This document shows positions 3,668-20,841 of a stretch of 29,625 nt of DNA, piece after piece (within the stretch, counting starts at the first letter, position 1; the number at the start of each line of letters is the position of its first letter). The position numbers and the translations under genes were made by a program. The stretch covers positions 1-29,625 of the IMG/VR virus record IMGVR_UViG_3300033146_002684. One strand, written 5' to 3'. The notes under the pieces are model-generated. The model did not search any database and was not told where the DNA came from. It saw only the letters and a program-made list of their open reading frames with translations. This DNA comes from a virus.

Positions 3668-6634
3668 ATGGCATACGTAAAACCGGGTGTGAAAATCATC
3701 CAAGAGTTCCGGAACCTCACTCCGAACATAAACAAACCTGATCTCCCGGCCGCTATTGTCGGTCCTTGTTTTCAAGTTGTTCGGAAAGAAAAAGTCTTAG
3801 ACGAAGTACCCTTTTCAGAAGTTTCTGATATCATTGAAGTTGCTGATACAGCAACAATTAACGCTCACGGAGAATATGTCTTAACCACAAACTATGTAAT
3901 TGGTAGTCGTAACGTAGACGTTTCTTATACTTATGATAACGGTGGATCACCGTTTACTCGCCGGGTTGGATTTGATTTATCCGATTCCGGTGTTGACATG
4001 ACTGATCTTACGGCACCTGTTGCGCCTGGAATCAGTGATATGACTCAACCCGCTCTGTTTAGAGAGCTTGTTAGGCTAAATGCATCTAAAAGATTTAATG
4101 TTTTGCCTAATGCGGCTGATCCAGCTGCAGTTGCAGCTCTTACTCCTACGGGTATGTGGGATCTTTGCCAAGAAGACGCTGGTAGCACATGGTGGACAAG
4201 TTATGTTAGTGGGCTTCCGGCTGATATTACCGCTGGCGACACTATGGTTGGTATTACTTATGGATACTTGTTCGAAGAGTTATTGATTGCTGGATCTGAA
4301 GTAACATTTGTGATCAATAAAGCGCAGACAAACGAAGAAGTATTCACAATCTCTGGTACGTCAAACGGCCCATGGGGATCCGGCTTCAACGGGCATTCTT
4401 TTAACACAACAGCGATGGCTAATAATCATGAAGCCGGAGAATCTGTTGAAGTTTACTTGACCGCTGGCGCAGCGCCGTTAGCTCTCACCGCGCAAGCTGC
4501 CGCCGCTGGGGGAACAACATGTTCTACAGCAAGTACTGGTACGCTTAGTAATGGTGATTACGTTACAATTACTGGTACAACCAGTTATAACGGTACGTTT
4601 AAAGTATCGAATGTGGTAGCAAATACCTCATTTGATATTCCGGTAACTTTTGTTGCTGATGACGCTGCTGGTAGTGCTGATATCTTAGAACAAAATAAAT
4701 GGATACCCGTAGACGTGACATCTTACATGCCTGCAGTGCCTGCTGACCGCACGATTACGTCGGATCGCATCAGACTCAACTTTGATGTAATTGCTGGTGA
4801 TACCATTGATTACACTGTTCGTGGTTGGCCGGTTACTATTCCATACCCTAATCCTCAGAACTACATCTCTCCGGTCATTGATCAGTCAAGTGTTGAGTTC
4901 TACATGAAAGATGCCTGGGTTGAGGTAGTCGATGTCCATACTGGCGCACAATCAATTGAAACCTCTTATGTCGTAGCGAACGTAGCCGTAGGCTCACAAA
5001 CGTTGCAAGTGAAGGGCGCGGAATCTTTCTTAGACCCGGGTGATACTTTCCAGGTTGGGAATGAGATATACAAGGCCCGCACAATCGCTGGTGATAATGT
5101 CACCCTCGATGTAGTTGCACACCCCGCTGGTTTAGCTGGCGCGCTCTCTGCAAACGATGTTGTTTTCAACTTGCCTTACCACTCTGGTTTTAGAGCTGGA
5201 CTCAGGTACTTCATTGACGAAAACGTAGATTTTGCTGCTGAGGGCGTAATTCCTGGAGATAAGATTGTGATCGACAACAATGGCGGCACTTATCTTGTCC
5301 AGGAGGTCGAGGGTAACAAGATTACACTGACAAGTGAGATTTACCATACTGTTATTTCGGCACAAACTACGCCATCTGGATCGGGAGATACTGACCAATA
5401 TGGGTACCGAATCCACAGATACTATGAAGAATTTAAACTTCCTCAGGGTTATGAGTATGGGCAAGACTATATTGCACAGCTTAATGATGTTCTTCTGGTT
5501 GCCATAGAAGACGAAGACGGTAATCCGGCTATCAGCGGGATTTTGTCGATCTCTTATAGAGCGTTCAGGGTCGATGCCCCGCAACGTAGAGAATATGAAA
5601 CAACTGATGAACTTAAATCTGTAATGGAAATAGACGTATGGAACCCGCTTGGTTTTGGTATTTATTGTTCCTTAATCAATACACTTACACCCGTCACAGG
5701 GGTTGCATTAACTCAGGATACTGAGCTCGGTTACGCTGAGGCTCTTGAACTTGAAGAAAACTATGCAGATTATGCCTTTGTTCCACTCAGTCAGAGTACG
5801 ACAGTGGCAAGCATGTTTTATAGTCACATAACCCAAATGTCCTTGCCAGAGCATTCTAAGTTCAGAATTGGACTTTATAATACTCCGTTGCAAACTACTC
5901 GTGACGTAGTCGAAGACTATCAAGGTAGCCTTGACGGAGCACCTTCGGAGATTATTATGAGTAGATACAGTTTTGTGCTTAATGACAACGAAGGAGATTT
6001 CTTTGTCAATAACATCAGACCTGGGCAAAAAATTACGTTTAACCGTAACCCGTTGCAACAAGTCACAAAAGACAGTATTGGTACGGTAGTCGCTGGCCCA
6101 TCTGCTTATTCCACGACAGGAATATTTAAGGTGAAAAAGATTAACACGGCTACCAAACTTGAGTTTGGTCTTTTTGACGCAGAATCCGGCAGGGAACTTC
6201 AAATCATATTTGATGACTTAGCTGGCCAGACCACTACACTCCAGCTTGATGTCAATACAGCTCCAGTTCTTGGGATCGTTGATTATACAATCACTCGCGA
6301 TCTTGATAAAAATGAGCAAGCTGAAACTATTGGGTCTATCGCCGCAAGCTATTTAAATCGTAGATCCTATATCATCTGGCCAGATAAGATTGAGGTTTCG
6401 TTTAATAACGAAGTTACTGAACAACCTGGTTATTATCTTGCTTGCATGATTGCTGGCATGATCGCGCATGACCGGTGTCGAGGGGCTTCTTCATTCCAAT
6501 ACATACTTCAGCGAAACACAGCTGAACAAAATGGCAGAGAAGGGTGTTTACATTGTTGTCCAAGATGTTCCCGGTGCTCTTCCTTATTCAAGACATCAAC
6601 TGTCTTCCGATCCGAGTACATTGCAGACAGCTGA
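3668..6634 (+). CDS. Tail sheath protein, N-terminal and middle domains (reading frame disrupted at the 3' end)
   Basis: ATG 3668 has AAGGAG at 8-base spacing and opens MAYVKPGVKI; a GTG at 3629 has no suitable RBS. The N-terminus has the sheath signature PAAIVGP (residues about 27-33). Near residues 265-340 is an inserted beta domain (YVTITGTTSYNGTFKVSNV...) of the FCCH-like type common in phage virion proteins. The conserved sheath core follows (WNPLGFGIYCSL, YAFVPLSQSTTVASMF, then SYIIWPDKI and YYLACMIAGMIA). Just after MIAGMIA this frame becomes non-homologous (HDRCRG...), while the true C-terminal domain continues in the next frame from 6468. About 10-13 residues that normally follow in sheath proteins seem absent. 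Sheath subunits form the contractile tail exterior. As read, the protein would be non-functional without frame restoration. Confidence 0.9.
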   Translation: MAYVKPGVKIIQEFRNLTPNINKPDLPAAIVGPCFQVVRKEKVLDEVPFSEVSDIIEVADTATINAHGEYVLTTNYVIGSRNVDVSYTYDNGGSPFTRRVGFDLSDSGVDMTDLTAPVAPGISDMTQPALFRELVRLNASKRFNVLPNAADPAAVAALTPTGMWDLCQEDAGSTWWTSYVSGLPADITAGDTMVGITYGYLFEELLIAGSEVTFVINKAQTNEEVFTISGTSNGPWGSGFNGHSFNTTAMANNHEAGESVEVYLTAGAAPLALTAQAAAAGGTTCSTASTGTLSNGDYVTITGTTSYNGTFKVSNVVANTSFDIPVTFVADDAAGSADILEQNKWIPVDVTSYMPAVPADRTITSDRIRLNFDVIAGDTIDYTVRGWPVTIPYPNPQNYISPVIDQSSVEFYMKDAWVEVVDVHTGAQSIETSYVVANVAVGSQTLQVKGAESFLDPGDTFQVGNEIYKARTIAGDNVTLDVVAHPAGLAGALSANDVVFNLPYHSGFRAGLRYFIDENVDFAAEGVIPGDKIVIDNNGGTYLVQEVEGNKITLTSEIYHTVISAQTTPSGSGDTDQYGYRIHRYYEEFKLPQGYEYGQDYIAQLNDVLLVAIEDEDGNPAISGILSISYRAFRVDAPQRREYETTDELKSVMEIDVWNPLGFGIYCSLINTLTPVTGVALTQDTELGYAEALELEENYADYAFVPLSQSTTVASMFYSHITQMSLPEHSKFRIGLYNTPLQTTRDVVEDYQGSLDGAPSEIIMSRYSFVLNDNEGDFFVNNIRPGQKITFNRNPLQQVTKDSIGTVVAGPSAYSTTGIFKVKKINTATKLEFGLFDAESGRELQIIFDDLAGQTTTLQLDVNTAPVLGIVDYTITRDLDKNEQAETIGSIAASYLNRRSYIIWPDKIEVSFNNEVTEQPGYYLACMIAGMIAHDRCRGASSFQYILQRNTAEQNGREGCLHCCPRCSRCSSLFKTSTVFRSEYIADS

Positions 6635-6947
6635 GTTATCAATTACGAAAGATATTGATTACTTCAGCTTCTGGGTACGCGATGCTCTTAAGCCGCATAT
6701 TGGCGTTCGGAATATTTTTGATGAGACAATAACTCTTATTGAAAATATCTGTGAGGCTGTCATTATTGAAGCAAAGTTGGAAACTGTGGAGAAGGCCGGC
6801 CCCGTGCTGACCGATGGTAAACTTGTTAGTGTACGGGCAAACTTGCACGGACAGAATACAGACTTACCACAAGATAAGGTCGAGGTAATCATTAATGCTA
6901 CCCCGCCTTATCCATTAAACGATATCACCGTTCATGTGGTAGTGTAA
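6468..6947 (+). CDS. Tail sheath protein, C-terminal domain (frame-shifted continuation)
   Basis: The 159-residue ORF begins TGVEGLLHSNTYFSETQLN and continues with GVYIVVQDVPGALPYSRHQLS. This is the classic C-terminal sheath domain, including the segment that contacts the tube, and belongs to the same gene as 3668-6634. Its ATG at 6468 has no Shine-Dalgarno sequence and lies inside the upstream frame, so it is unlikely to be an independent gene. The shift relative to the upstream part is +1. Repeated CATGA words at the junction (6445, 6457 and 6467) would favour a slippage deletion. An assembly error is the main alternative. Confidence 0.85.
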   Translation: MTGVEGLLHSNTYFSETQLNKMAEKGVYIVVQDVPGALPYSRHQLSSDPSTLQTAELSITKDIDYFSFWVRDALKPHIGVRNIFDETITLIENICEAVIIEAKLETVEKAGPVLTDGKLVSVRANLHGQNTDLPQDKVEVIINATPPYPLNDITVHVVV

Positions 6948-6957
6948 GGAGTAAACT

Positions 6958-7707
6958 ATGTTGAAGTTTAATATATCTGAGTATTTCGGGAATCAACGAG
7001 CTACTCAGTGGAATTGGAAAGAGAATTTTGTTCAGCCCGACGAAAACTTCGCGATGGGTATGAACTTTGTCTCTGGTAAATCAACGTTGCTGGCTGCAGG
7101 GCCAGCAACTGCGATGGTTGGTATTGAGACAATGGTTAATCCTATTGGGCTTACCCCTCAAATCCAGATGCAGCAGCAATTACCGCAACAGCGTATAGGC
7201 GAAATTGGGAGTCAAAGGACTCATTTTGTTCCTGGTACTCCTATTGGCGGCGGAACTATTCAACGCCTTATTTATAATGGACCGTCATTGATGAGGGCGC
7301 TTTATAGTGCAACATACGATGAGCATGGTAAAATTACTTCGCAGGGTCTTGAGGGACAACTTGGGGCGAATAAGGGAACGGCTAGTGCTGAGTTAGCTCA
7401 AGTGCTGAAGACGATCACTTCGCCAGGTAGTGAATCTAAAGTGTCCGAAGGGCATAACAACAGTTCACTCTGGTTGTCTTTGTTTGATGAACGTTTCGGG
7501 GCTTCATTCGGAATGGCTGTGTTCATGGAAGATAATGGTGGTCGACCTATAGGTGGTGTATATCTCGAAGGAATGGTTATTCAGAGCCATAACTGGGGAA
7601 TCACAGCGGGGTCAAACGTTATTATGGAAGGTGTGAGTTTCCAATTTGAAAGATCAATGCCTATTAAGGGTGTCGGGATTTCGACTATATCTGGAAGCAC
7701 GCAGTAA
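6958..7707 (+). CDS. Tail tube protein (249 aa)
   Basis: ATG 6958 follows TAAGGAGTAAACT (good RBS) 10 bases after the sheath stop. The protein is Gly/Gln/Met-rich (e.g. IQMQQQLPQQRIGEIGSQ) with a beta-rich C-terminus ending in YLEGMVIQSHNWGITAGSNVIMEGVSFQFERS, a pattern seen in tube proteins of contractile tails whose beta-barrel C-terminal strands carry an internal-cavity face. Position directly after the sheath is the usual place for the tube gene. It would assemble as hexameric rings inside the sheath. A GC-rich perfect hairpin begins 23 bases after the stop codon, which may limit read-through from this highly expressed gene. Confidence 0.75.
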   Translation: MLKFNISEYFGNQRATQWNWKENFVQPDENFAMGMNFVSGKSTLLAAGPATAMVGIETMVNPIGLTPQIQMQQQLPQQRIGEIGSQRTHFVPGTPIGGGTIQRLIYNGPSLMRALYSATYDEHGKITSQGLEGQLGANKGTASAELAQVLKTITSPGSESKVSEGHNNSSLWLSLFDERFGASFGMAVFMEDNGGRPIGGVYLEGMVIQSHNWGITAGSNVIMEGVSFQFERSMPIKGVGISTISGSTQ

Positions 7708-7711
7708 GAAG

Positions 7712-9487
7712 ATGACGGTCAATACTACAGAGAGGGCGCTAGAGCGCCCTCTCAATTACCGACCATCATTTTTAAAAACGGCAATAGTCGGACCTCGCTA
7801 TGAGATATTCAATGGAGAGGTTGATTTTAGTTACGATGTTGTAGCTAGTGGGGATAACTTCCTAGACACGATAGAGACACATTCAGAGAGCCTCATTTAC
7901 GTGCTAGACCCAGGGTTCCCTGATTTATCGCTTTTAAATCCGATTGGTAAATACTTGTTATTTGGCAACGGGTTACGAAAAGTCATTATCAACTACGACC
8001 ATGCGAACCAGTTGTTATATCTGGATTCTCCAGTGTTTACGAATGATTGGCCCCACTCCGCCAATCCGGCGGTTAGTGAACCAATTATCGCAACATGGGA
8101 GATTCGAGATCTAGCAATTCCGGATACTGTTGATTTTTACTATCATCATGAAGCGCTTACGTACAAGCATCAGGTCCCTCCATATAATAACGGCGAAGGA
8201 TATATAGAGTCTACAGAACAAATGAAGTTTGGGTTCTGGGATGTTCCTAGTTATACCCCCCAACCTCTTGATGAGATTATATTTTTCACAGGCAGAAGAC
8301 ATCGGGTTCTCTTTAAATCGTCGAATAAAATAGTGTTCGATAGCCCCGAATTGGATAACCATGATATTGATACATTTTTTGAAATTCAGAGAAGTGGTGT
8401 AGTCGTTTGTTACGGCAACCACGCACAGCTTGCCGGGATCTATGAATCGGAATTTTATCTAGTTGATTCACTGGGCATTCCTACTATTGATTGTCCGAAA
8501 ATGATAGAGGGCGAAGTGATCTACTTCGCCAATCATAAGTCTAGGTTTTACAAAGGGGGTTTTCTCGACCAAGCTTATGAAAATACTTGTGACGGAAAAT
8601 TTGTTGACTACTGGGAGATTGTTCGTTTTTCTTCAGAGTTTTTAGAGTTATACAACTATAATTCAAGGACTTATAGGTTGACTTTGCCGCATGAAAATCC
8701 GGAAGATTTAACTATTACTGTTGGCGATGGTCTTTCTGTCATATATGAAAGGCCCAAGGACTACACGACAAGATATCTCGTTACCGACAAATGGCTCATA
8801 GACGAGACAGCCGATTTCAAAGACGTAGAACCTGGGGATACAGTATGGATGCCTATGGTCAATCTGACGTTTTCCAGAGAAACAATCAATGACGGAAGGA
8901 CTTTCGTAGTCGAAAAAACCGTCATTAACAAATTAGGTAAATACACGAAAATTATATTTAAAAAGCACACTTTGGATTATGCGGACAGAGAATGGGTCGG
9001 GAATTACCGTGTTATGTCCGGGAGAGAGAGTACACCTATCTTTATTCAGGAAAATGGTATCTTCGTGAATATAGAAGATAAATACATTAATAGCACCAAG
9101 CTGAAAATTAGGTATAAGGTACTTAGCCCGGGGGGGCTTACAGAGGTATTTTCTGACGATGAAGTGACAGTAGACGAACTCAACCCTGTCGGGCTAGCAG
9201 TCAGCTTAGCCCTGAAATCATCTCAGGGATACCCTATTTATTACTACCCGATTCATTCTAATGATGAAAATGGGTATGTTGAAGCGCTTAAGCATCTGAA
9301 TGATATGTACTGCCTGGTTCCCTTAACCCAGGATCAGAGAATAATCGAAATATTCCATGAGCATGTAGAGTTAATGAGTAAAGAGTATAAATATCAGATT
9401 GTCTTGTTGAACCACGAGCTGGTAGATACTGTCATCGTAATAACTGACAAGAATGGTGAATTGGCAGAGACAATAATTGAGGATTAA
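7712..9487 (+). CDS. Sheath-related paralog lacking the C-terminal sheath domain (591 aa)
   Basis: The start is taken at ATG 7712, four bases after the tube stop; an in-frame ATG at 7646 lies inside the tube gene and is rejected. Direct comparison with the sheath in this window shows shared blocks. KTAIVGPRYEIF (residues 22-33) matches the sheath AAIVGPCFQVV. LNPVGLAVSLALKSS matches WNPLGFGIYCSLINT. GYVEALKHLNDMYCLVPLTQDQRIIEIFHEHVELMS matches, in part, GYAEALELEENYADYAFVPLSQ...MFYSHITQMS. It stops about 30 residues later and lacks the C-terminal domain needed for sheath polymerisation. It may cap the sheath at the baseplate or neck end. The first 42 bases contain the hairpin at 7730-7753. 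Confidence 0.75.
   Translation: MTVNTTERALERPLNYRPSFLKTAIVGPRYEIFNGEVDFSYDVVASGDNFLDTIETHSESLIYVLDPGFPDLSLLNPIGKYLLFGNGLRKVIINYDHANQLLYLDSPVFTNDWPHSANPAVSEPIIATWEIRDLAIPDTVDFYYHHEALTYKHQVPPYNNGEGYIESTEQMKFGFWDVPSYTPQPLDEIIFFTGRRHRVLFKSSNKIVFDSPELDNHDIDTFFEIQRSGVVVCYGNHAQLAGIYESEFYLVDSLGIPTIDCPKMIEGEVIYFANHKSRFYKGGFLDQAYENTCDGKFVDYWEIVRFSSEFLELYNYNSRTYRLTLPHENPEDLTITVGDGLSVIYERPKDYTTRYLVTDKWLIDETADFKDVEPGDTVWMPMVNLTFSRETINDGRTFVVEKTVINKLGKYTKIIFKKHTLDYADREWVGNYRVMSGRESTPIFIQENGIFVNIEDKYINSTKLKIRYKVLSPGGLTEVFSDDEVTVDELNPVGLAVSLALKSSQGYPIYYYPIHSNDENGYVEALKHLNDMYCLVPLTQDQRIIEIFHEHVELMSKEYKYQIVLLNHELVDTVIVITDKNGELAETIIED
7730..7753 (+). promoter_or_regulatory. Perfect GC-rich hairpin after the tail tube gene
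   Basis: GAGAGGGCGCT (7730-7740) and AGCGCCCTCTC (7743-7753) form a perfect inverted repeat; as RNA, a 10-bp stem with a UAGA loop. It lies 23 bases after the tube stop and inside the first codons of the sheath paralog. No T-run follows, so it is not a standard terminator. It is more likely an RNA-stability or translation-tuning element. Confidence 0.6.
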
Positions 9488-9490
9488 GAT

Positions 9491-9817
9491 ATGATGCGAT
9501 CAATTAGAATTATCTACAACTCCAGGAAAACACTAGTCCTAAAATTCAATAAGGATGTAACAGATTGCGAGCTCATCTTCTTTGATTGTCATAATAAAGA
9601 ATTTTACAGGTTCAGCATAGGGATGTTGAATGATGAGTATGAATATCGTTTAATAGTCGAGCCCGAAGTTACTGTTAACCGGCTTGTGAATGACTGGCAT
9701 AACGATCATTACAAGTTCTGGGAATTATGGGTAGACGGCGAGAAAATTGAAAGGGGATTACTTTATATAGACAAGACTCCTGAAGGCTATAGCTTACCTA
9801 TCGATTTTGAGCTATAA
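9491..9817 (+). CDS. Hypothetical tail/baseplate-region protein (108 aa)
   Basis: ATG 9491 has GAGG 8 bases upstream and follows the previous stop by three bases. It is a beta-rich acidic/aromatic protein (RIIYNSRKTLVLKF, YEYRLIVEPEVTVNRLV, FWELWVDGEKIERGLLYI) with no membrane segment or recognised motif. Its place between the sheath paralog and the fibre-like proteins suggests a minor tail or baseplate component. No family can be named. Confidence 0.6.
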   Translation: MMRSIRIIYNSRKTLVLKFNKDVTDCELIFFDCHNKEFYRFSIGMLNDEYEYRLIVEPEVTVNRLVNDWHNDHYKFWELWVDGEKIERGLLYIDKTPEGYSLPIDFEL

Positions 9818-9825
9818 TAGTAATT

Positions 9826-10620
9826 ATGTTTGGAGAGACTTTTACCCTCAATGGCAAGGTTGAGATAACCCTGCACGATAAATCAGGAACAGTGTTTAAT
9901 ACGATTAAGCAAAATACTGTTGTAGAAGAAGGTATGCTTGGATTTCTGTCGTCATTAGGGCCGGAGCATAGCTATAAAGTAGTGAATTTTTATCTATGGA
10001 ACAGGAACCTTATTCCTGCGTATACCGACCCTGACCCCGCTGTAAATGAAAGAAATAAGTTTAACGATGAATTTGAGATAACGTTTGAAAGGATGATTAA
10101 CGAACACCAGTGGGTAGGGATAAGCAATAGGGCTGTCAAAAGAATCTCTGATTCATACCCTATTGATAGGGCTGATTTTAGAGGCGTTGGCGTAGAGGTC
10201 ATCACAACGTATAAAGATACTGATGTAGTTCCGAATTTTAATGTTGCGACACTCACGGTTAGAGAGGTTCCCTACAGGCCGTATGATGAGGTAGCTACGC
10301 TGAGAAAAGCTATAACAGAAACTGACACAGAAATTTCAGTTGGAGAAAGACTTCGTCTTAATCTAGCAATCGGTAGCTATATTAAGGTTGCTGATGAGGT
10401 TATGCAAGTAACTGACTTACCTATTAATCATAGTGATATTATTAGGGTCTCGCGGCCTGACCCGGTAGGGCACAACACATGGGAACTCGTTTATAGGCAT
10501 TATACTTATCCGCAGGAAAAGTTGCTTAGCTACGCACAATTACTTGCCGAAGTTGAAAAAGGTGATTATTTTTTAACTATAAAGTGGGTTTACGAATTAG
10601 GTCGGGTATTCACATGTTAG
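9826..10620 (+). CDS. Baseplate/short tail-fibre-like protein A (264 aa)
   Basis: ATG 9826 has no obvious RBS and follows the previous stop by eight bases. The N-terminus (LNGKVEITLHDKSGTVFNTIKQNTVVEEG) is the pattern G-K/R-V-x-I ... G-x-V-x-x ... N-x-V found at the start of many phage fibre/virion proteins, and it is shared with the next gene product. Residues about 165-215 (ITETDTEISVGERL ... IKVADEVMQVTDLP) form a small beta module resembling those in other virion proteins. It probably attaches to the baseplate. The end overlaps the next gene by seven bases (ATGTTAG). Confidence 0.5.
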   Translation: MFGETFTLNGKVEITLHDKSGTVFNTIKQNTVVEEGMLGFLSSLGPEHSYKVVNFYLWNRNLIPAYTDPDPAVNERNKFNDEFEITFERMINEHQWVGISNRAVKRISDSYPIDRADFRGVGVEVITTYKDTDVVPNFNVATLTVREVPYRPYDEVATLRKAITETDTEISVGERLRLNLAIGSYIKVADEVMQVTDLPINHSDIIRVSRPDPVGHNTWELVYRHYTYPQEKLLSYAQLLAEVEKGDYFLTIKWVYELGRVFTC

Positions 10621-11129
10621 ATAAATACGGAAGAATAAAAGGTCGGGTACGGATAACTGAGTGCCTTCCTAACGGAAATGTTTTCGATAGTGTTGTTGCG
10701 AACCTCGTCGTTATGCAGGTTAGAACACAAATTCGTGATCGATTTTTTGGTGATGTAGCTGCTCCAATTTCTCCTATTAGCGGGATGCGGTTTGGGTATT
10801 ATCGTGTGGCAGGTGCTGCTGTAACTCTCCCGACAGTGAATAAAGACGTATCTTTATTTACACCGATTAATGTTGATGACGGCTCCGGGGTAATGGTTGC
10901 TGAAAGGGCTATCATAAGAAAGGAGAAAAACCCAGATTGTACCCCGTCTGTCATAACTCCGAATATAGCCACTTTTGAGGTAGACCTAGAGACTTCTGTT
11001 CCAACTTTTTTCTATAATGAGTTAGGATTATATCAAGAAGATGGTACAATGTTTGCGAGGGTTGGTTTTGACGAAAGAAAAAAAATAGCGGGACTTAAAA
11101 CAACTATTTCATGGACAATTTTTTATTAA
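10614..11129 (+). CDS. Baseplate/short tail-fibre-like protein B (171 aa)
   Basis: ATG 10614, overlapping the preceding stop, is preferred over the in-frame GTG at 10584, which lacks an RBS. The start KYGRIKGRVRITECLPNGNVFDSVVANLVV parallels protein A (GKVEIT..., SGTVFNTIKQNTVV), so the two appear to share an N-terminal anchoring domain. The remainder is beta-rich (MRFGYYRVAGAAVTLP, IATFEVDLETSVPTFFYNELGLY). The role is inferred as a tail-tip or fibre-connector component from position and the shared N-terminus. Confidence 0.5.
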   Translation: MLDKYGRIKGRVRITECLPNGNVFDSVVANLVVMQVRTQIRDRFFGDVAAPISPISGMRFGYYRVAGAAVTLPTVNKDVSLFTPINVDDGSGVMVAERAIIRKEKNPDCTPSVITPNIATFEVDLETSVPTFFYNELGLYQEDGTMFARVGFDERKKIAGLKTTISWTIFY

Positions 11130-11141
11130 AGGAAACGGAAT

Positions 11142-14100
11142 ATGGCGTATAAATTTGACAAAGATTATATCAATCTTGATTTTCAGAATGTTATCCCAGG
11201 CGATCTGAGCAAATCTTATGGGGTATTCCGCTTTTATCTAGACGGAAGAACAATCGAAGAGGATACCTTTATCTTTCGTGTTGTTGATCCAGCAAAACAA
11301 ACAGCCACGGGTTTTGCCAAGTATTACCCTGTAGTTACTCCGTCCGCCTCTGTCCCCAACGGTTTTGAATATGATCAAGTAAATGCAGCATGGTACGACA
11401 AGGAAGTTCAAGATCAAGCGACTCCTGCTAATAATTACTTAATAGCTGGGGGCCCTACGCCTTTTCTTATTACGTACTCCAGCGCGAGAATGGGGAGCCT
11501 TAATTGGTTAGATATTATTATTACGTTTCCATACGGGGTTGATCCTGACACGTTACTGCCGAATTACGAGATTCATGTTATTGACATCAAAGATATGGAT
11601 ATTACGGATCCTGCCAATCCTATTCCTAATGAACCGGCAACTATTGATTTTTCTATTTGTCAAGATGTCAATAGTTTGACACTGTTACCATATCGCGCTC
11701 CTGTACGTAGTGAGGTTGTTAATGTGCCACTGAGGCAACTCTGGCAAATGACTAATTACCTTGACTGTAAGCTAAACGGCTTCACTGACCAGGCAAGTAT
11801 GGACCTTGGCGTAATTGCTACATTTTGCGGAACGGATATTATTATCCAGAATGAATATAAGACGTTAGAAGAATCTATGTCCATTGAACTTATTGCGACA
11901 TCGCCTAACGCAAAAATTTACTATACAACTGACGAGAACGCTGCCCCACTAAACTTATACACAGGGTGTATCAATATTTCTTCGTTTGAAGAAAAAACGT
12001 TTTATATTAAATATCAGGCTAAGTTAGAATCACTCGGAGTTATGTCTCAAGTATTTATTTTGAAAGTAGTTCTAGCCCCAAAACACTTGTACATTACACC
12101 ATCACCAGTTGCTGGTGATTATTTCACAAGCCAAACTATTACATTAGCCGGGAATTTTTCTAACGCAAGAATTTATTACACGTTGGATGGGACAACCCCG
12201 ATTTGGACTACTGACGGTAGTGCGGCTGGGAGTACTATTCTGTATACTGATGAAACTGGTACACTTGGTTCAGGGCCATTTACGTTGTCTTCGACTACAA
12301 CCGTGAGATACGGTGGTTACCTTCCTGATATTGGGAGTATTGCTCCAAACGGTAGCGCAACATATAACATAGATACTACAGCACTTGTTATCTCATTATC
12401 CCCAGCTTCTGGAACATACTCACCCGGGTCCCCCGTATCTGTAGATATCAGTGTTTCCCAGGGTGGTATAGCCATTAACTCTGAACTCGAAGTATCGTAC
12501 AACGGAGGCAGTTGGACCAGCATAGGTAACGCACCCGCATCCGTTTCTATTGACGGATCATTGGGCGATTTGACAGATATGCAAGTTCGTACATCATATT
12601 CAGGGAAATCATCCACCGCGCTTGGACAATATGAGTTAGCTGCTGATATTAAAATGGAAATCGAAATTTGCGGCCCGCAGCAACTGTGCGAAGATCAGTC
12701 CGGGGAATATTACTTCATACTTTTCAAAAAACTTGAAGATGGAACACGTATCGATGTAACCGGGGACCCGAATTATCAAGTTTCCTATACCGCCGGCTTA
12801 TCGCCCGCTGATCCAGATTTTATTGGCTCTGGTACGCTTATCGGGTCACCTAATGCTTCTGTCAATATTCAACCTGACAGTTTTGGCGGATTGGCTGGGG
12901 TTAACCCGCTTACAAATGTACCGGTAGATTTTGAGATTAGGGCAATAGCTAAAGATCTCAACGGTATAGCCTCTAATTCTAATATCGCTAACGCGAAGAA
13001 TACATATTTTTCTAAGTCATACCAAGATAACTCAAATGGTGGCGAGGTTCTATTTGCGACTTCTCCCGACTATGATTATCATGCCCACACTACCGGAGCT
13101 CCGGCGGGAGTGTCTAGTCTTGACATGAGCTATCGAGAAGGTGGCGTGGCCTTTGATGCTGATTATTTCGTTGAGGTTTATCAACCAAGCGGATCCAGAA
13201 AAACGACATTGCCGACTACAGCAGATTGGTCAAATGTTTTCTCTTACTCTTCATTGCATGACGGAACAACAAACCCCGTAAGCATCACCGATAGTGGGGT
13301 TGGGTTTGAGAATATTATCAACATGTCGCCGTGGAATATTGTAGTAGTTAAAGCTGAGGGGTTTAACGCTGGCGCGGCCACTGGTAACAGCGGGATACTA
13401 GTTATCACAATGAAAAGCAACACTGGTGGACCGGCCCCGTATATGTGTTCGATGCAATCAGCTATGGCTGTAGCCGGAACAGGCAACTGCCACTCTGCTA
13501 ATATTCTTAAGAAAATGTTCGATAACGGAACAGCTCTTACGACCGGGCCCGGCAGTGAGATTGAGGTTATGGAATCACGAGTTGATTTCGAATATGAATA
13601 TCGTGTCCTTGTTTCGCCCGGGACGGTTAGAGATTACACTACTTCTGAGCCGTGGGTTGATATCATTCATACTCTTCCCCAGGAAGGTGTCGATGATTAT
13701 CTTAAGGCTTTAAGCATCACAGTGAATGATGACGATTTACTTGAAGTCCAAACCAGAGTTTCATGGCATGACTATGTGAGCTATGCTAGTCATATCATAA
13801 GGCTAAACGATTCTAAGTATAATTTCACATTTACGCCAAACATCGATGACGGCCCCTTTGAGAGCGGTACACTGGATATTACAGAAATTAATGGCCCGGC
13901 TACGTACGGCGGTTTCGGAGTGGATCTTTACTATAGAAAATCCAGTTCAGCGCCATGGACGTTGGTTGCCAACCCGATTGCTGGGCTTACTGTTACAAAC
14001 GCTGAACCAGACTTTGATGTAAAAGCTGAGGCATTAGATCATTCTGGAGCCGTCATGAGTTGTCCAACAACCCAGGAAACAATTACATACGCATTTACGT

Positions 14101-15338
14101 CTGCTGCTTCGTTCTCTGTGAACCCCCCTACTAATGGTGAACAAGAAATCGCCGCCCCGGTAATCAGCGGTGCCTCTCAGGTGTTTACCTCCGGTACGAG
14201 TGCTGGGGAGATTTGGTATATGTCATCAGCCGAAGCTACAGAAGTTAATGGAACTGAGCCCATTAAATCAGCGATCTTTAGGAACGTAATAGAGATTCTT
14301 ACAAATAATTCGGTACCAATGCCTAGTGGGACAAGTTATGTTACCTGGGGAGAGTTTTATGCTGGGTATAAAGAATCCAGCGATATCTCGGGATTAATTA
14401 TTGCAGTTAACGCAATGCCGAATGATCTTATCAGATCAGAATTCACGCAGGATATGACAGGAATATCAGTTACGCTTCACGGTAGCTCTGGTGGTGACTT
14501 AGAAGCTGTATGGGTGAATATAGATGGTACGTCCACCAAGTATGGTGTTCGTTACAGAAATCCTATTTCATCACTGATGGATAGCACCGACATGGGTACT
14601 AATGTTTATTTGAGCACCGGGCTAAAGAATTCTTCCGAGTGGAATACTGTTGAACTCACAAAGGGTGCTTGGAACTCAGGGCTTATAGAATTTCCCTGCT
14701 GGTCGATAAAGAAGACCACGAGAGAATGTGGGTCAGGTGGATTGCAAAGTTTCTACTCTTTGACCACAGACGATGTTATGTCTGGAGTAGGTGGCACGAT
14801 AGCTCAGTATCAATACGTAGCAAAAAGTGCAACAGCTTTTAAGATTAACGGGGAAATTCAACTTGAATCCACTTCTTATACACTTACAAAAAGTGGTAAC
14901 AGCTATAGTAACAGTGTTGGAATGACTATTGTCTTAGAAACTACCGCTATTCCATCATCCAGAATCACAAGTTATGAAAATGGGTATGCTTATTATAGTT
15001 ATGTGAAATTCTCGGCGGGTAGTTCATTGCCAGAATCATTCGCTGATGAGTTGAGAATACGATTTGAATTAAATGATGGTAACTTTAGTGCTTGGTATAC
15101 ATTCAAGGTATTTATGCCGTCAGCAACTAACGCAACAATGTACGCAGACGCAGTAGCTAAATGGGGTCTTATTCCATGGGATGAATACAACAATGGAACT
15201 AAAGAGAAAGATATGCTTTGTATTGATGTTCCACCCTTATGCCCGCCAGGAACAACTCCATATTATAGTCCTAAACTTGGCTTTCAGTGCCTCCCGTATA
15301 CTGTAGACGAAGGTGGCGTTGAGCCAGTAGAACCTTAA
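11142..15338 (+). CDS. Large tail fibre / adhesin-like protein with chitobiase-C-terminal-type (CHB_HEX_C) Ig-like domains (1398 aa)
   Basis: ATG 11142 has AAAGGA upstream. After an N-terminal virion-attachment region (residues 1-200) come at least two domains with the IYYTxD signature of the chitobiase/beta-hexosaminidase C-terminal fold: residues about 232-311 (AKIYYTTDENAAP) and about 317-412 (ARIYYTLDGTTPIWTTDG). An Ig-like segment with SPASGTYSPGSPV follows at about 416-498. The rest is Gly/Ser/Thr-rich beta structure with clustered cysteines and ends in a Pro/Cys-rich tail (PPLCPPGTTPYYSP). No enzymatic motif is seen. It most likely forms a long fibre or baseplate spike that binds the cell surface, possibly polysaccharide. 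The size, with repeated beta-domains, suits a receptor-binding protein. Confidence 0.65.
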   Translation: MAYKFDKDYINLDFQNVIPGDLSKSYGVFRFYLDGRTIEEDTFIFRVVDPAKQTATGFAKYYPVVTPSASVPNGFEYDQVNAAWYDKEVQDQATPANNYLIAGGPTPFLITYSSARMGSLNWLDIIITFPYGVDPDTLLPNYEIHVIDIKDMDITDPANPIPNEPATIDFSICQDVNSLTLLPYRAPVRSEVVNVPLRQLWQMTNYLDCKLNGFTDQASMDLGVIATFCGTDIIIQNEYKTLEESMSIELIATSPNAKIYYTTDENAAPLNLYTGCINISSFEEKTFYIKYQAKLESLGVMSQVFILKVVLAPKHLYITPSPVAGDYFTSQTITLAGNFSNARIYYTLDGTTPIWTTDGSAAGSTILYTDETGTLGSGPFTLSSTTTVRYGGYLPDIGSIAPNGSATYNIDTTALVISLSPASGTYSPGSPVSVDISVSQGGIAINSELEVSYNGGSWTSIGNAPASVSIDGSLGDLTDMQVRTSYSGKSSTALGQYELAADIKMEIEICGPQQLCEDQSGEYYFILFKKLEDGTRIDVTGDPNYQVSYTAGLSPADPDFIGSGTLIGSPNASVNIQPDSFGGLAGVNPLTNVPVDFEIRAIAKDLNGIASNSNIANAKNTYFSKSYQDNSNGGEVLFATSPDYDYHAHTTGAPAGVSSLDMSYREGGVAFDADYFVEVYQPSGSRKTTLPTTADWSNVFSYSSLHDGTTNPVSITDSGVGFENIINMSPWNIVVVKAEGFNAGAATGNSGILVITMKSNTGGPAPYMCSMQSAMAVAGTGNCHSANILKKMFDNGTALTTGPGSEIEVMESRVDFEYEYRVLVSPGTVRDYTTSEPWVDIIHTLPQEGVDDYLKALSITVNDDDLLEVQTRVSWHDYVSYASHIIRLNDSKYNFTFTPNIDDGPFESGTLDITEINGPATYGGFGVDLYYRKSSSAPWTLVANPIAGLTVTNAEPDFDVKAEALDHSGAVMSCPTTQETITYAFTSAASFSVNPPTNGEQEIAAPVISGASQVFTSGTSAGEIWYMSSAEATEVNGTEPIKSAIFRNVIEILTNNSVPMPSGTSYVTWGEFYAGYKESSDISGLIIAVNAMPNDLIRSEFTQDMTGISVTLHGSSGGDLEAVWVNIDGTSTKYGVRYRNPISSLMDSTDMGTNVYLSTGLKNSSEWNTVELTKGAWNSGLIEFPCWSIKKTTRECGSGGLQSFYSLTTDDVMSGVGGTIAQYQYVAKSATAFKINGEIQLESTSYTLTKSGNSYSNSVGMTIVLETTAIPSSRITSYENGYAYYSYVKFSAGSSLPESFADELRIRFELNDGNFSAWYTFKVFMPSATNATMYADAVAKWGLIPWDEYNNGTKEKDMLCIDVPPLCPPGTTPYYSPKLGFQCLPYTVDEGGVEPVEP

Positions 15339-18385: not shown

Positions 18386-20071
18386 ATGCCTAAAAAAAGA
18401 ACTGACGTAGAAATACGAAAAATGTATGAAGAGCATGTTAACGGGGCTTCGTACGCTGATATAGCAAAAAAATATGGAATAGGTAAGAACACGTTAACAA
18501 GGGGTTTCAAAAGGCTTAGGCTAGCCCCATCTCTAATTAGAAAACCACGGAAGCACTCTGAAGAAGATGTCAAAAGATACCATGATTGGTATATGTATAA
18601 TCATGCAACCATAAAAGATACAGCAGTACATTTTAGAATATCCCCGCCATCTCTCAAGACTGCATTTGATCGACTTGGTTTATGTAGAAATACGGTCCCA
18701 TATAAGAATTTATTCAGTCGATATTCAAATGGAGAAAAACTAGAATCTATCGCTAAAGAGTATAATATTTCTACGATAACCCTTTTGAAACATTTTAAAC
18801 AACTTGGTTTAACAAAAGAAAAAATAGATATAATTCCTGCCCTGCATTCTGAGTATATTGAGTCCAGAAAGTCTGCGGACGTTATTGCGAGAAAGTACAA
18901 AATTTCAAAGAATACTCTTTTACGAGAATTTAAGGAAAGGGGGTTAGAGATTTTACCGGCAAGGAGGAATAATGAATACTTATCTTCGCAAGTTAGAAAA
19001 ATCAAAATAATGGAAAAGACAGGAGATGACCGCATTGCCTGGTTAAAGGTTAATGGATTTACGCTATTAGAGCCGTATATTTCCTTATGGACGGAAGAGC
19101 ATAAACATAGACAATATAAATTACTACACTCTGATTGTGGTACTAAATTTGAAGATGATATTGTTACTCTACCCAAATGTCCGAAATGTCACGTAGGAAG
19201 AATATCAAGATTAGAGCTTGATATCGGCAAGTATATTAATGACGTTCTCCATATTACTGTGAAGAGGACAGTACGAAACATACTACCCGGTAGGAGGGAG
19301 TTAGATATAATATGCCCATCTCATAAAGTAGCGTTTGAAATAAACGGGCTTTATTATCATCATATTTACAATACACACATAACAGGCAAAGATTATCACG
19401 TTAAAAAAACAAAGGATTCTTTAGCGTATGGTTATAGACTGTACCATATATGGGAAAGTGCTGATATTACTATTATAAAATCAATGATAAGAAGTATATT
19501 AGGAGTTTCTGAAAAATCCGTTGGGGCTAGAAAGCTAGAAGCTAAGAGCTTAAAAGTAACTAGTTTCTTTGACGAAAATCATTTACATGGCTCAACGCCG
19601 GCAAAGTGGAGTTATGGATTAGTCGATAGCAATGGTGAAATTCTATGTGGATTATCAATACGGGAATTTCGGAACCCTAAAGCTATCCCGGGTGTTATAG
19701 AAATAGCAAGGTTTGCCACAAAAATGGGGTATTCTGTTCCTGGCGGATTCTCTAAATTACTTAAGTTAGCAATTAGAGAGATATCCCCATCAAAAATTAT
19801 TACGTATGCAGACCAGGATTGGACCCCGGATTCTGCGAACAATGTATACGTAAAAAATGGTTTTAAACTGGTTGGGGAAACCCCTCCGAAATTATTCTAC
19901 ACAGATACTAGACAAATATTTAAAAGGGAAAAATACCAAAAGCACAAGCTAGAGGATCTTTTCCCGGATACTTATAATCAGAATCTGACAGCTAACGAAA
20001 TCTTAGAAAAAAATGGTATTTACCCTATTTACGCTACCGGGAACTGGAGATTTGAAATGAAGTTATCTTAG
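18386..20071 (+). CDS. Free-standing homing endonuclease, four HTH repeats plus Vsr/EDxHD-like nuclease (561 aa)
   Basis: ATG 18386 follows TGTAGGAGAAAAT. The N-terminus holds four helix-turn-helix repeats of about 40 residues (about 7-46, 60-100, 106-148, 153-193), each with the core IAKxYxISKNTLLRxFKxxGL. A zinc-binding knuckle follows (H248, C251, C265, C268). The nuclease core is RRELDII (305-309) and VAFEINGLYYHH (315-326), then a conserved His/Lys region (GKDYHVKKTKD) and WESAD. This is the ELDI...AIEFNGLYWH pattern of the Vsr-like/PD-(D/E)XK homing endonucleases. A C-terminal domain (residues about 395-470) has HLHGSTPAKWSYGL and VPGGFSKLLKLA. It would cut a DNA site lacking the gene and so promote its own spread. 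It is bounded by its own promoter and terminator. Confidence 0.88.
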   Translation: MPKKRTDVEIRKMYEEHVNGASYADIAKKYGIGKNTLTRGFKRLRLAPSLIRKPRKHSEEDVKRYHDWYMYNHATIKDTAVHFRISPPSLKTAFDRLGLCRNTVPYKNLFSRYSNGEKLESIAKEYNISTITLLKHFKQLGLTKEKIDIIPALHSEYIESRKSADVIARKYKISKNTLLREFKERGLEILPARRNNEYLSSQVRKIKIMEKTGDDRIAWLKVNGFTLLEPYISLWTEEHKHRQYKLLHSDCGTKFEDDIVTLPKCPKCHVGRISRLELDIGKYINDVLHITVKRTVRNILPGRRELDIICPSHKVAFEINGLYYHHIYNTHITGKDYHVKKTKDSLAYGYRLYHIWESADITIIKSMIRSILGVSEKSVGARKLEAKSLKVTSFFDENHLHGSTPAKWSYGLVDSNGEILCGLSIREFRNPKAIPGVIEIARFATKMGYSVPGGFSKLLKLAIREISPSKIITYADQDWTPDSANNVYVKNGFKLVGETPPKLFYTDTRQIFKREKYQKHKLEDLFPDTYNQNLTANEILEKNGIYPIYATGNWRFEMKLS

Positions 20072-20509
20072 GGTTCCCCACTCCCAAACCCATTCAGAGG
20101 ATGAGGCATTGCCCCATCCTCTCCGGATGTTCTGGCTTTTTTTTAGCTGTAACTTTTGTCTCTCGTATTGTTGCTGAAGTATCATGGCCTGGTTATTATA
20201 TGCCGGGCCTTTTTCCATAATAGGGATGTGCAATCCACCATCGCTATAGCCATTAAGAGAGTTTCTTATTTGTAAAATGCCGCTTGACTGCATAGCTATA
20301 AGAGCTGCGCCGTAGATCAATAAACGCGGCGATATGTGATTTTCAATGGTGGCAAAAGGAATGGGGGGAGGAGTTGTATTCCAATCATCTAATGCCATCT
20401 CCAAAAAGAACTTTAGATCTTCGTCTGAATACTCCTCAACCCCTTTTAAAATGTTCTTGTTGGCAGCGTCCATTAAGAAATGACGCAGCATTTTGATTAG
20501 ACGGTTCAT
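20063..20509 (-). CDS. Head-tail connector/adaptor-like virion protein (148 aa)
   Basis: Last gene of the leftward head operon. ATG 20509 overlaps the preceding stop (ATGA). The features are an N-terminal helix (MNRLIKMLRHFLMDAAN), acidic EYSDEDLKFFLEMALDDWNTTPPP, a hydrophobic helix LLIYGAALIAMQSS, then LNGYSDGGLHIPIMEKGPAYNNQA and a coiled C-terminus. The EYSDEDL...NxTPP...YGA...RN-L-Y-DGG layout is one I associate with connector/virion proteins near capsid genes; the exact family is uncertain. Its last nine bases overlap the end of the homing endonuclease on the other strand. A hairpin within its 3' end acts on both strands. Confidence 0.6.
   Translation of the reverse strand: MNRLIKMLRHFLMDAANKNILKGVEEYSDEDLKFFLEMALDDWNTTPPPIPFATIENHISPRLLIYGAALIAMQSSGILQIRNSLNGYSDGGLHIPIMEKGPAYNNQAMILQQQYERQKLQLKKSQNIRRGWGNASSSEWVWEWGTLR
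20123..20144 (+). terminator. Intrinsic terminator of the homing endonuclease transcript
   Basis: CCGGA (20123-20127) / TCTGG (20131-20135) with a TGT loop and one G-U pair, followed by C and eight T residues (20137-20144). A longer inverted repeat directly upstream (20096-20107 / 20111-20122, 12 bp with one mismatch that is a G-U pair on the minus strand) may add strength. Both lie inside the 3' end of the convergent gene. Confidence 0.7.
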
Positions 20510-20841
20510 TCAGATATTTTCTTTGCTCTACGTCCACGACGCTTAGGCGTGGTCTTCACTTCTTCAGTTTTTGCTTCAACCGGGTCTGGGGTTTTTACTT
20601 CTTCAGTTTTTGCTTCAACCGGGTCTGGGGTTTTTACTTCTTCAGTTTTTGCTTCAACCGGGTCTGGGGTTTTTACTTTTACCGGGGGTGGGGTTTTGAT
20701 AGGTGATATAGGAATCAAATGTGTATTGATGTATCTTCTCATCTTAGGATCACTTTCTTGGCTTTTTGAAAGTGTAATCTCTGTGCCAGCCTTGATAAAT
20801 TTTCTATTAATCAGGCATGTTTTTTTTACTTTATATTTCAT
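20506..20841 (-). CDS. Small virion-region protein with three 13-residue repeats (111 aa)
   Basis: ATG 20841 has GGAG upstream. The N-terminal 45 residues form a compact beta-type domain (KYKVKKTCLINRKFIKAGTEITLS). Three exact copies of TPDPVEAKTEEVK follow, then a very basic tail (PKRRGRRAKKISE). The repeats are Pro/Glu/Lys-rich and likely form an extended, disordered linker. The combination of a folded head, repeated linker and basic tail suggests a capsid-bound protein reaching toward DNA, but this is inference. It follows the capsid gene after the 20857-20878 hairpin, so its expression is probably lower than that of the capsid protein. Confidence 0.6.
   Translation of the reverse strand: MKYKVKKTCLINRKFIKAGTEITLSKSQESDPKMRRYINTHLIPISPIKTPPPVKVKTPDPVEAKTEEVKTPDPVEAKTEEVKTPDPVEAKTEEVKTTPKRRGRRAKKISE
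20558..20674 (-). repeat. Three tandem 39-bp coding repeats
   Basis: Three identical 39-bp units (20558-20596, 20597-20635, 20636-20674), each encoding TPDPVEAKTEEVK. A degenerate partial unit (20675 to about 20698) adjoins. Base-level identity indicates recent expansion, and copy number is likely to vary between relatives. Confidence 0.9.

Follow-up and report, generated by a model that had tools for sequence, protein, structure and literature searches.

Type VI secretion sheaths are built from two proteins, TssB and TssC, while gp25 of phage T4 is a sheath initiator and AFP has special end layers. In the sheath of phage XM1, according to the accessible text of its description, the C-terminal domain faces upward and takes up N- and C-terminal strands from two subunits of the ring above; the initiator aligns with this same sheath domain, and the last ring gains a strand from the tail terminator (PMC10457771). 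The Milano sheath is likewise divided into handshake, body and extension domains in the available part of its account (PMC10811340). Sheath paralogs have also been described. The jumbo phage PaBG and its group (Lupandier group) have two of full length, of 58.5 and 57.9 kDa and 38% identical (PMC7412058, PMC9230969, as accessible in part), and two sheath copies are reported there for some phages generally (PMC9230969). In the eCIS PVC and AFP, several sheath paralogs occur in one particle and superpose as complete sheath folds, as the accessible text describes them (PMC8894135).

As far as these partly accessible sources go, full-length sheath paralogs are already known; the one described here, the product of a gene that we call P0001, is half-length. 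No half-length sheath protein was found in the literature on truncated, minor or split sheaths, as accessible in part and with few of the subscription journals within its scope. With contractile tail sheaths of the T4 gp18 kind (phi812, phiCD508, Milano), P0001 shares the body-domain sequence block and, in prediction, its fold, whereas it lacks the second part of the body domain, the ring-linking C-terminal domain and a recognisable N-arm. It resembles the PaBG-like jumbo phages in that one phage has a second sheath paralog, but both of their paralogs are of full size as described and P0001 is a half with about 25% identity. The likeness to PVC and AFP again lies in the sheath paralogs, which in the available account are complete folds there and a half here; the accessible text of papers on eCIS sheaths does not state end-layer roles for particular paralogs. 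The XM1 initiator gp15 matches the sheath C-terminal domain in the available description (PMC10457771), whereas P0001 corresponds to the opposite half. XM1 gp5 and AlgoCIS Alg16B, the latter described in its accessible text as mimicking the handshake (PMC8894135), have an end-of-sheath role such as is proposed below for P0001, but judged by these descriptions they are not sheath halves.

The P0001 locus and its interrupted sheath gene

The window analysed here is the entire virus record IMGVR_UViG_3300033146_002684 (29,625 bases), and its relevant features are compiled in Table 1. On the + strand the sheath gene is followed by the tube gene and then by P0001, which starts 4 nt past the tube stop at 7707 and continues for 591 codons with no internal stop; the coordinates and intact frame given in the sequence-only reading are right. 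The full-length sheath which that reading placed in the same window, on the other hand, proved to be frame-broken at 6466/6468. The ORF at 3668–6634 carries sheath sequence to about 6466, the last ~150 residues lie in the ORF at 6468–6947, and some 12 conserved positions (HMM 588–599, the segment around PxQQGFTN) are lost at the junction. Residues at these positions are present in all 36 reference sheaths, 27 of which fit the strict pattern. The break has the appearance of either a deletion or a faulty assembly. A short GCATGA repeat is found at the junction (6430–6560).

Table 1. Features of the P0001 locus, in window coordinates.
Feature	Coordinates	Strand	Evidence
Full-length sheath gene, in-frame part (sheath HMM 2-587); ATG 3668, AAGGAG upstream	3668..6466	+	HMM
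C-terminal ring-linking sheath domain, other frame (HMM 600-752)	6468..6947	+	HMM; phrog_2839 E 2.7e-7
Tail tube protein, 249 aa	6958..7707	+	Position; similarity to post-sheath proteins of Arash, D69, G001
P0001, half-length sheath paralog, 591 aa	7712..9487	+	ORF, blastp, sheath HMM, model, structure matches
Predicted RNA structure around P0001 start codon, outer stem pairs AUG	7708..7773	+	Folding
Perfect inverted repeat, 11-nt arms, just inside P0001 gene	7730..7753	+	Sequence
AIVGP segment (residues 23-27), first strand of sheath body domain; weak by sequence alone	7778..7792	+	Alignment, model
Long middle region (residues 41-460, approximate), at the place of the outer domains in sheaths	7832..9091	+	blastp, model
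Sheath body-domain block, residues 488-580 (NPxG ... EAL ... VPLTQ ... H ... YQIVLLN)	9173..9451	+	blastp, HMM, alignment
Three small genes 3' of P0001 (9491-9817, 9826-10620, 10584-11129)	9491..11129	+	Pfam/PHROGs
1398-aa protein, chitobiase C-terminal/Fn3-associated repeats	11142..15338	+	Family match

Searches of Pfam and PHROGs returned no family match for the tube protein. Among the genes 3' of P0001, the product of 10584–11129 resembles the N-terminus of a tail-collar fibre (PF12571 at E 5e-4, below cut-off, and phrog_5417), and the 1398-aa protein is, from its sequence, a probable fibre or adhesin. No baseplate or neck genes were recognised in the window, a 29.6-kb fragment, and Rfam and tRNA scans of its whole length gave zero matches.

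Sequence and predicted structure of P0001

Residues 343–584 of P0001 match residues 511–768 of the window sheath at about 25% identity (blastp E 1e-9). The domain E value against an HMM of 36 sheaths was 8.8e-16, and hhalign gave a probability of 97% against the sheath profile. The 36 sheath ORFs of the HMM were hand-picked from a blast list, leaving out the split sheaths L010 and L036, the loci L019 and L037, which the ORF rule missed, and some near-duplicates. The C-terminal block of P0001 also matched the sheaths of other phages (G001, E 1.7e-8; Vibrio phage D69, 1.4e-7; Salmonella phage Arash, 8.5e-7), and a P0001 search of 36 records matched 23 of them. Because the blastp, HMM and hhalign matches are this strong, the similarity of the body block is far above chance, and for this C-terminal block the alternative of chance resemblance, which the sequence-only reading had itself named among its refutations, was ruled out. 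All three blocks named in that reading occur in both proteins, as AIVGP in each, as NPVG against NPLG, and as EAL...VPLTQ against EAL...VPLSQ, but AIVGP alone is non-significant: the N-terminal HMM gave P0001 an E of 10 and rank 55 of 2,128 proteins, and the segment is collinear only. That HMM aligned just positions 26–37, and the N-arm motif of sheaths was unrecognisable. These comparisons confirm P0001 as a diverged, C-terminally truncated paralog of the tail sheath and not a chance ORF.

The complete protein had zero matches in Pfam or PHROGs, fibre families included; tblastn against 50,697 phage records found nothing at E 0.01, and neither a peptide-pattern scan of viral contigs nor sequence searches of solved structures returned anything. 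The long middle region (about residues 41–460) was likewise matched by no Pfam or PHROGs family and is modelled with low confidence. Its last part, from residue 343, falls within the blastp match to residues 511–768 of the window sheath.

Structure prediction, put forward earlier as a check on the kinship, supported it. An AlphaFold2 model of P0001, computed from an alignment with 35 sheath rows, was confident solely at residues about 21–40 and 460–575. Its best structure match was phi812 (Z 12.0 over 113 residues, 2.6 Å), and the first eight of 50 structure rows were contractile-tail chains from phi812, Milano, phiCD508, diffocin and 6gkw, the last titled sheath protein; unrelated proteins started at Z 8.1. 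We read the matched chains as sheath chains, though most titles omit the chain name. Foldseek also ranked contractile-tail chains first, yet with no E below 0.001, and among the best 50 rows of BFVD (viral structures) there was none named sheath and no meaningful match. Since sheaths were already in the alignment behind the model, the fold match supports the assignment but is not independent proof of it.

The missing parts were located on a model of the complete sheath of a relative (L046, 706 aa; pLDDT 80.5), for which solved sheaths gave matches with Z as high as 34 over >300 residues. By block alignment, P0001 ends at about residue 395 of L046, inside the body domain; about 10 residues of the protein follow its HMM match, which stops at position 429 of 752. 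What is absent is therefore the whole C-terminal domain, the ring-linking or handshake domain, together with the helices and strands that come later in the body domain. The sequence-only reading had the protein end before the polymerising domain, and that domain is indeed missing, but more is missing besides. As predicted from sequence and model, P0001 would begin with a short N-terminal stretch and the first body-domain strand, continue with a long outer region and close with the initial part of the body domain.

Split and second sheath genes in relatives

The closest relative found is IMGVR_UViG_3300022863_000014 (G002), with 44% identity in the tube, 44% in the terminase and about 30% in the portal; a portal-based scan for relatives returned only this record (as L010). 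Its sheath consists of two adjacent genes (L010:5965-7954), the first encoding 337 aa (HMM 1-424) and followed by TAATAA, GGAG and an ATG, the second encoding 316 aa (HMM 466-752). Because there is no overlap between the open frames, a single base change or indel cannot explain the split, and the two-gene sheath looks real. The split coincides with the end point of P0001 (HMM 429), and the best match of P0001 in G002 is the N-half of this split sheath (phmmer E 1.9e-5). In a tree of a 140-column block P0001 joined the same N-half at 97/73, with a tool warning, but owing to long branches that tree cannot place P0001 or the G002 candidate described below. A second split sheath, L036:5649-7972 in record G022, is doubtful and may be a sequence error, because its two frames overlap and a TAA lies within the terminase match (L060) of the same record, which we read as error-prone or decaying.

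The position of the G002 split bears on a two-chain alternative in which P0001, as an N-half, would be completed by a separately made C-half in the manner of TssB/TssC, so that the phage would have two kinds of sheath subunit. The non-overlapping frames, the shared end point, the preference of P0001 for the N-half and the similar length of a half-length G002 candidate (331 aa) and that N-half (337 aa) all favour it. Against it, the HMM found no separate C-terminal half cut at the P0001 boundary in the window fragment. The ORF at 6468–6947 begins much later, at HMM 600, with no ribosome site by eye, and looks like the tail of the frame-broken gene; and the other split sheath is possibly an error. 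We regard the two-chain alternative as unlikely. The G002 genes are comparable with TssB/TssC in their arrangement, and a split sheath of this kind shows a plausible step from one-chain to two-chain sheaths, as in type VI secretion.

Forty-four viral loci were gathered by way of a tube alignment (A1), along with a single bacterial MAG contig, and next to the true sheath, whole or split, the sheath HMM detected no half-length paralog in any of the viral ones. A six-frame HMM search of the tube-bearing and earlier loci found sheath-like second frames only in the split sheaths, in P0001 and in L023, where the match is weak, partial and confined to the insert domain. We then profiled 79 whole records, namely 36 of the 44 tube-bearing ones (one as G001), 40 terminase-bearing ones, G000 and two named phages; the terminase-bearing loci came from the 80 listed of 213 matches, and the tube- and terminase-bearing records that were dropped were mainly short contigs. 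The sheath-block profile matched in 66 of the 79 records and matched twice in three: the window (sheath, E 1.5e-40; P0001, 8.2e-29), G002 (3.0e-30 and 0.0039) and G037 (2.0e-8 and 3.4e-7). The G037 paralog (L143:921-3353, 810 aa; blastp E 9e-6 to that record's own 564-aa sheath) is not cut like P0001, because about 210 residues follow its body block. L145 and L146 (G068 and G072), considered as weak matches, look like ordinary sheaths with the C-terminal half present. In L063:3741-4957 five small genes stand in a row, with products that start with MSLIKLA, the first reaching it soon after its start.

The ORF with the second sheath-block match in G002 (L142:6741-7736, 331 aa, TTG start), distinct from both halves of the split sheath, is a weak candidate when each comparison is taken singly: hhalign gave 18% against the sheath profile, the block HMM E of 0.21 among 2,128 proteins was tied with two others, blastp found no direct match to P0001 (best E above 2), and a scan with the candidate as query matched only itself. 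Its combined score for the N-terminal and body blocks, however, was 12.9 bits, just below the sheath-family proteins; the next non-sheath protein among the 2,128 scored 6.0, and none of 4000 shuffles was as high (best 6.8). From the body-block match to the protein end there are 38 residues in the candidate, 11 in P0001 and 7 in the split sheath N-half. The candidate and P0001 share their strand and the three genes that lie downstream of them (15348-like, 16166-like and portal), while in G002 the sheath and tube lie beyond the portal and the candidate sits apart from both, in a fibre-side module with probable fibre genes, in our reading of their sequences, downstream. In our judgement it is likely to be the half-length counterpart of P0001. 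With identities of about 30% between the two phages in portal, capsid and sheath, retention of a half gene by both would suggest that it is used. Of the pairs of full-length and truncated genes that the sequence-only reading proposed to look for in related phages, G002 has a likely instance; two matches were seen in only 3 of 79 records, and the G037 paralog is longer.

The counterpart also weighs against regarding P0001 as a relic, meaning a duplicate of the sheath gene whose 3' half has been lost and whose remainder is decaying, within a record that has a damaged main sheath as well. That damage, the lack of a half-length paralog by the sheath HMM in all 44 tube-bearing viral loci and a codon use barely off neutral (0.005 per codon) are consistent with decay, although codon bias is too weak for judging genes in this window because a wrong frame of P0001 outscores the right one. 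P0001 nevertheless has 591 open codons despite only about 25% identity to the window sheath, and we consider a relic quite improbable. The earlier judgement that P0001 is not a simple pseudogene is supported by the open frame and the likely G002 counterpart; because the closest relative seems to have a similar half-gene, P0001 is probably not junk but a minor part of the tail.

Possible roles of P0001

With the C-terminal domain absent, P0001 would be unable to hold another sheath ring or to polymerise. The region 7690–7790 is predicted to fold at -37.3 kcal/mol (z -5.9; none of 200 shuffles as good), and because the P0001 start lies in this predicted RNA structure and the G002 candidate starts with TTG, low expression or low copy number is suggested. 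Our preferred reading, held tentatively and at rather less than an even chance, is that P0001 is a low-copy, non-polymerising tail component derived from half a sheath. Made in small amounts, this structural protein would dock on the sheath or its end and bring its outer region to that place. Sequence, model and published analogy all enter into this.

The sequence-only reading had proposed a cap for the first or last sheath ring. Given the XM1 polarity, as set out in its accessible text (PMC10457771), a half that lacks the C-terminal domain cannot start a sheath at the baseplate but could in principle end it on the head side, so that geometrically only the last of the two rings is reasonable. 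As each ring offers its C-terminal domain upward, P0001 would fit the head-proximal ring best, where by the published geometry it would be the mirror image of the baseplate initiator, which is like the C-terminal domain. On this analogy P0001 is a possible cap. The more specific proposal, that the half sheath is a chain terminator on the head-proximal ring, giving no platform for the next, and has been kept alongside the full sheath within a small lineage of phages where the sheath can be split into two genes at the same boundary, we regard as doubtful. Against a plain cap, the N-arm for docking on the ring below is unrecognisable in P0001, the body domain is partly absent and the rest may be unstable without a partner, and the G002 counterpart lies in the fibre-side module, at a distance from the genes for sheath and tube. 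If the proposal were true, both ends of a contractile sheath could come from cutting a sheath gene in two, and it would offer a simple test of how sheaths end.

The placement of the G002 candidate upstream of probable fibre genes also suggests that a sheath half may have been taken over as a base for attaching fibres or decoration to the surface of the tail and is no ring subunit. Fibre-like genes lie downstream of P0001 in the window as well, and the largest part of the protein is the unmatched, poorly modelled outer region. P0001 itself, however, directly follows the tube gene and has no fibre family match, and such a fibre-module protein appears unlikely to us.

Elsewhere in the window, 37–1014 encodes a metalloprotease-like protein with an HExxHxxGxxH motif (by eye; the Reprolysin_3/Peptidase_M11 matches are weak), followed by ~1.3 kb of sparse coding at the record edge, and 20506–20841 encodes a protein with a repeated KTPDPVEAKTEEV-like unit. 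The large proteins encoded at 18386–20071 and at L010:8737-10326 are related (25% identity, E 8e-21), lie at differing borders of the structural modules and, in the window copy, have helix-turn-helix matches; they are probably mobile and homing-endonuclease-like.
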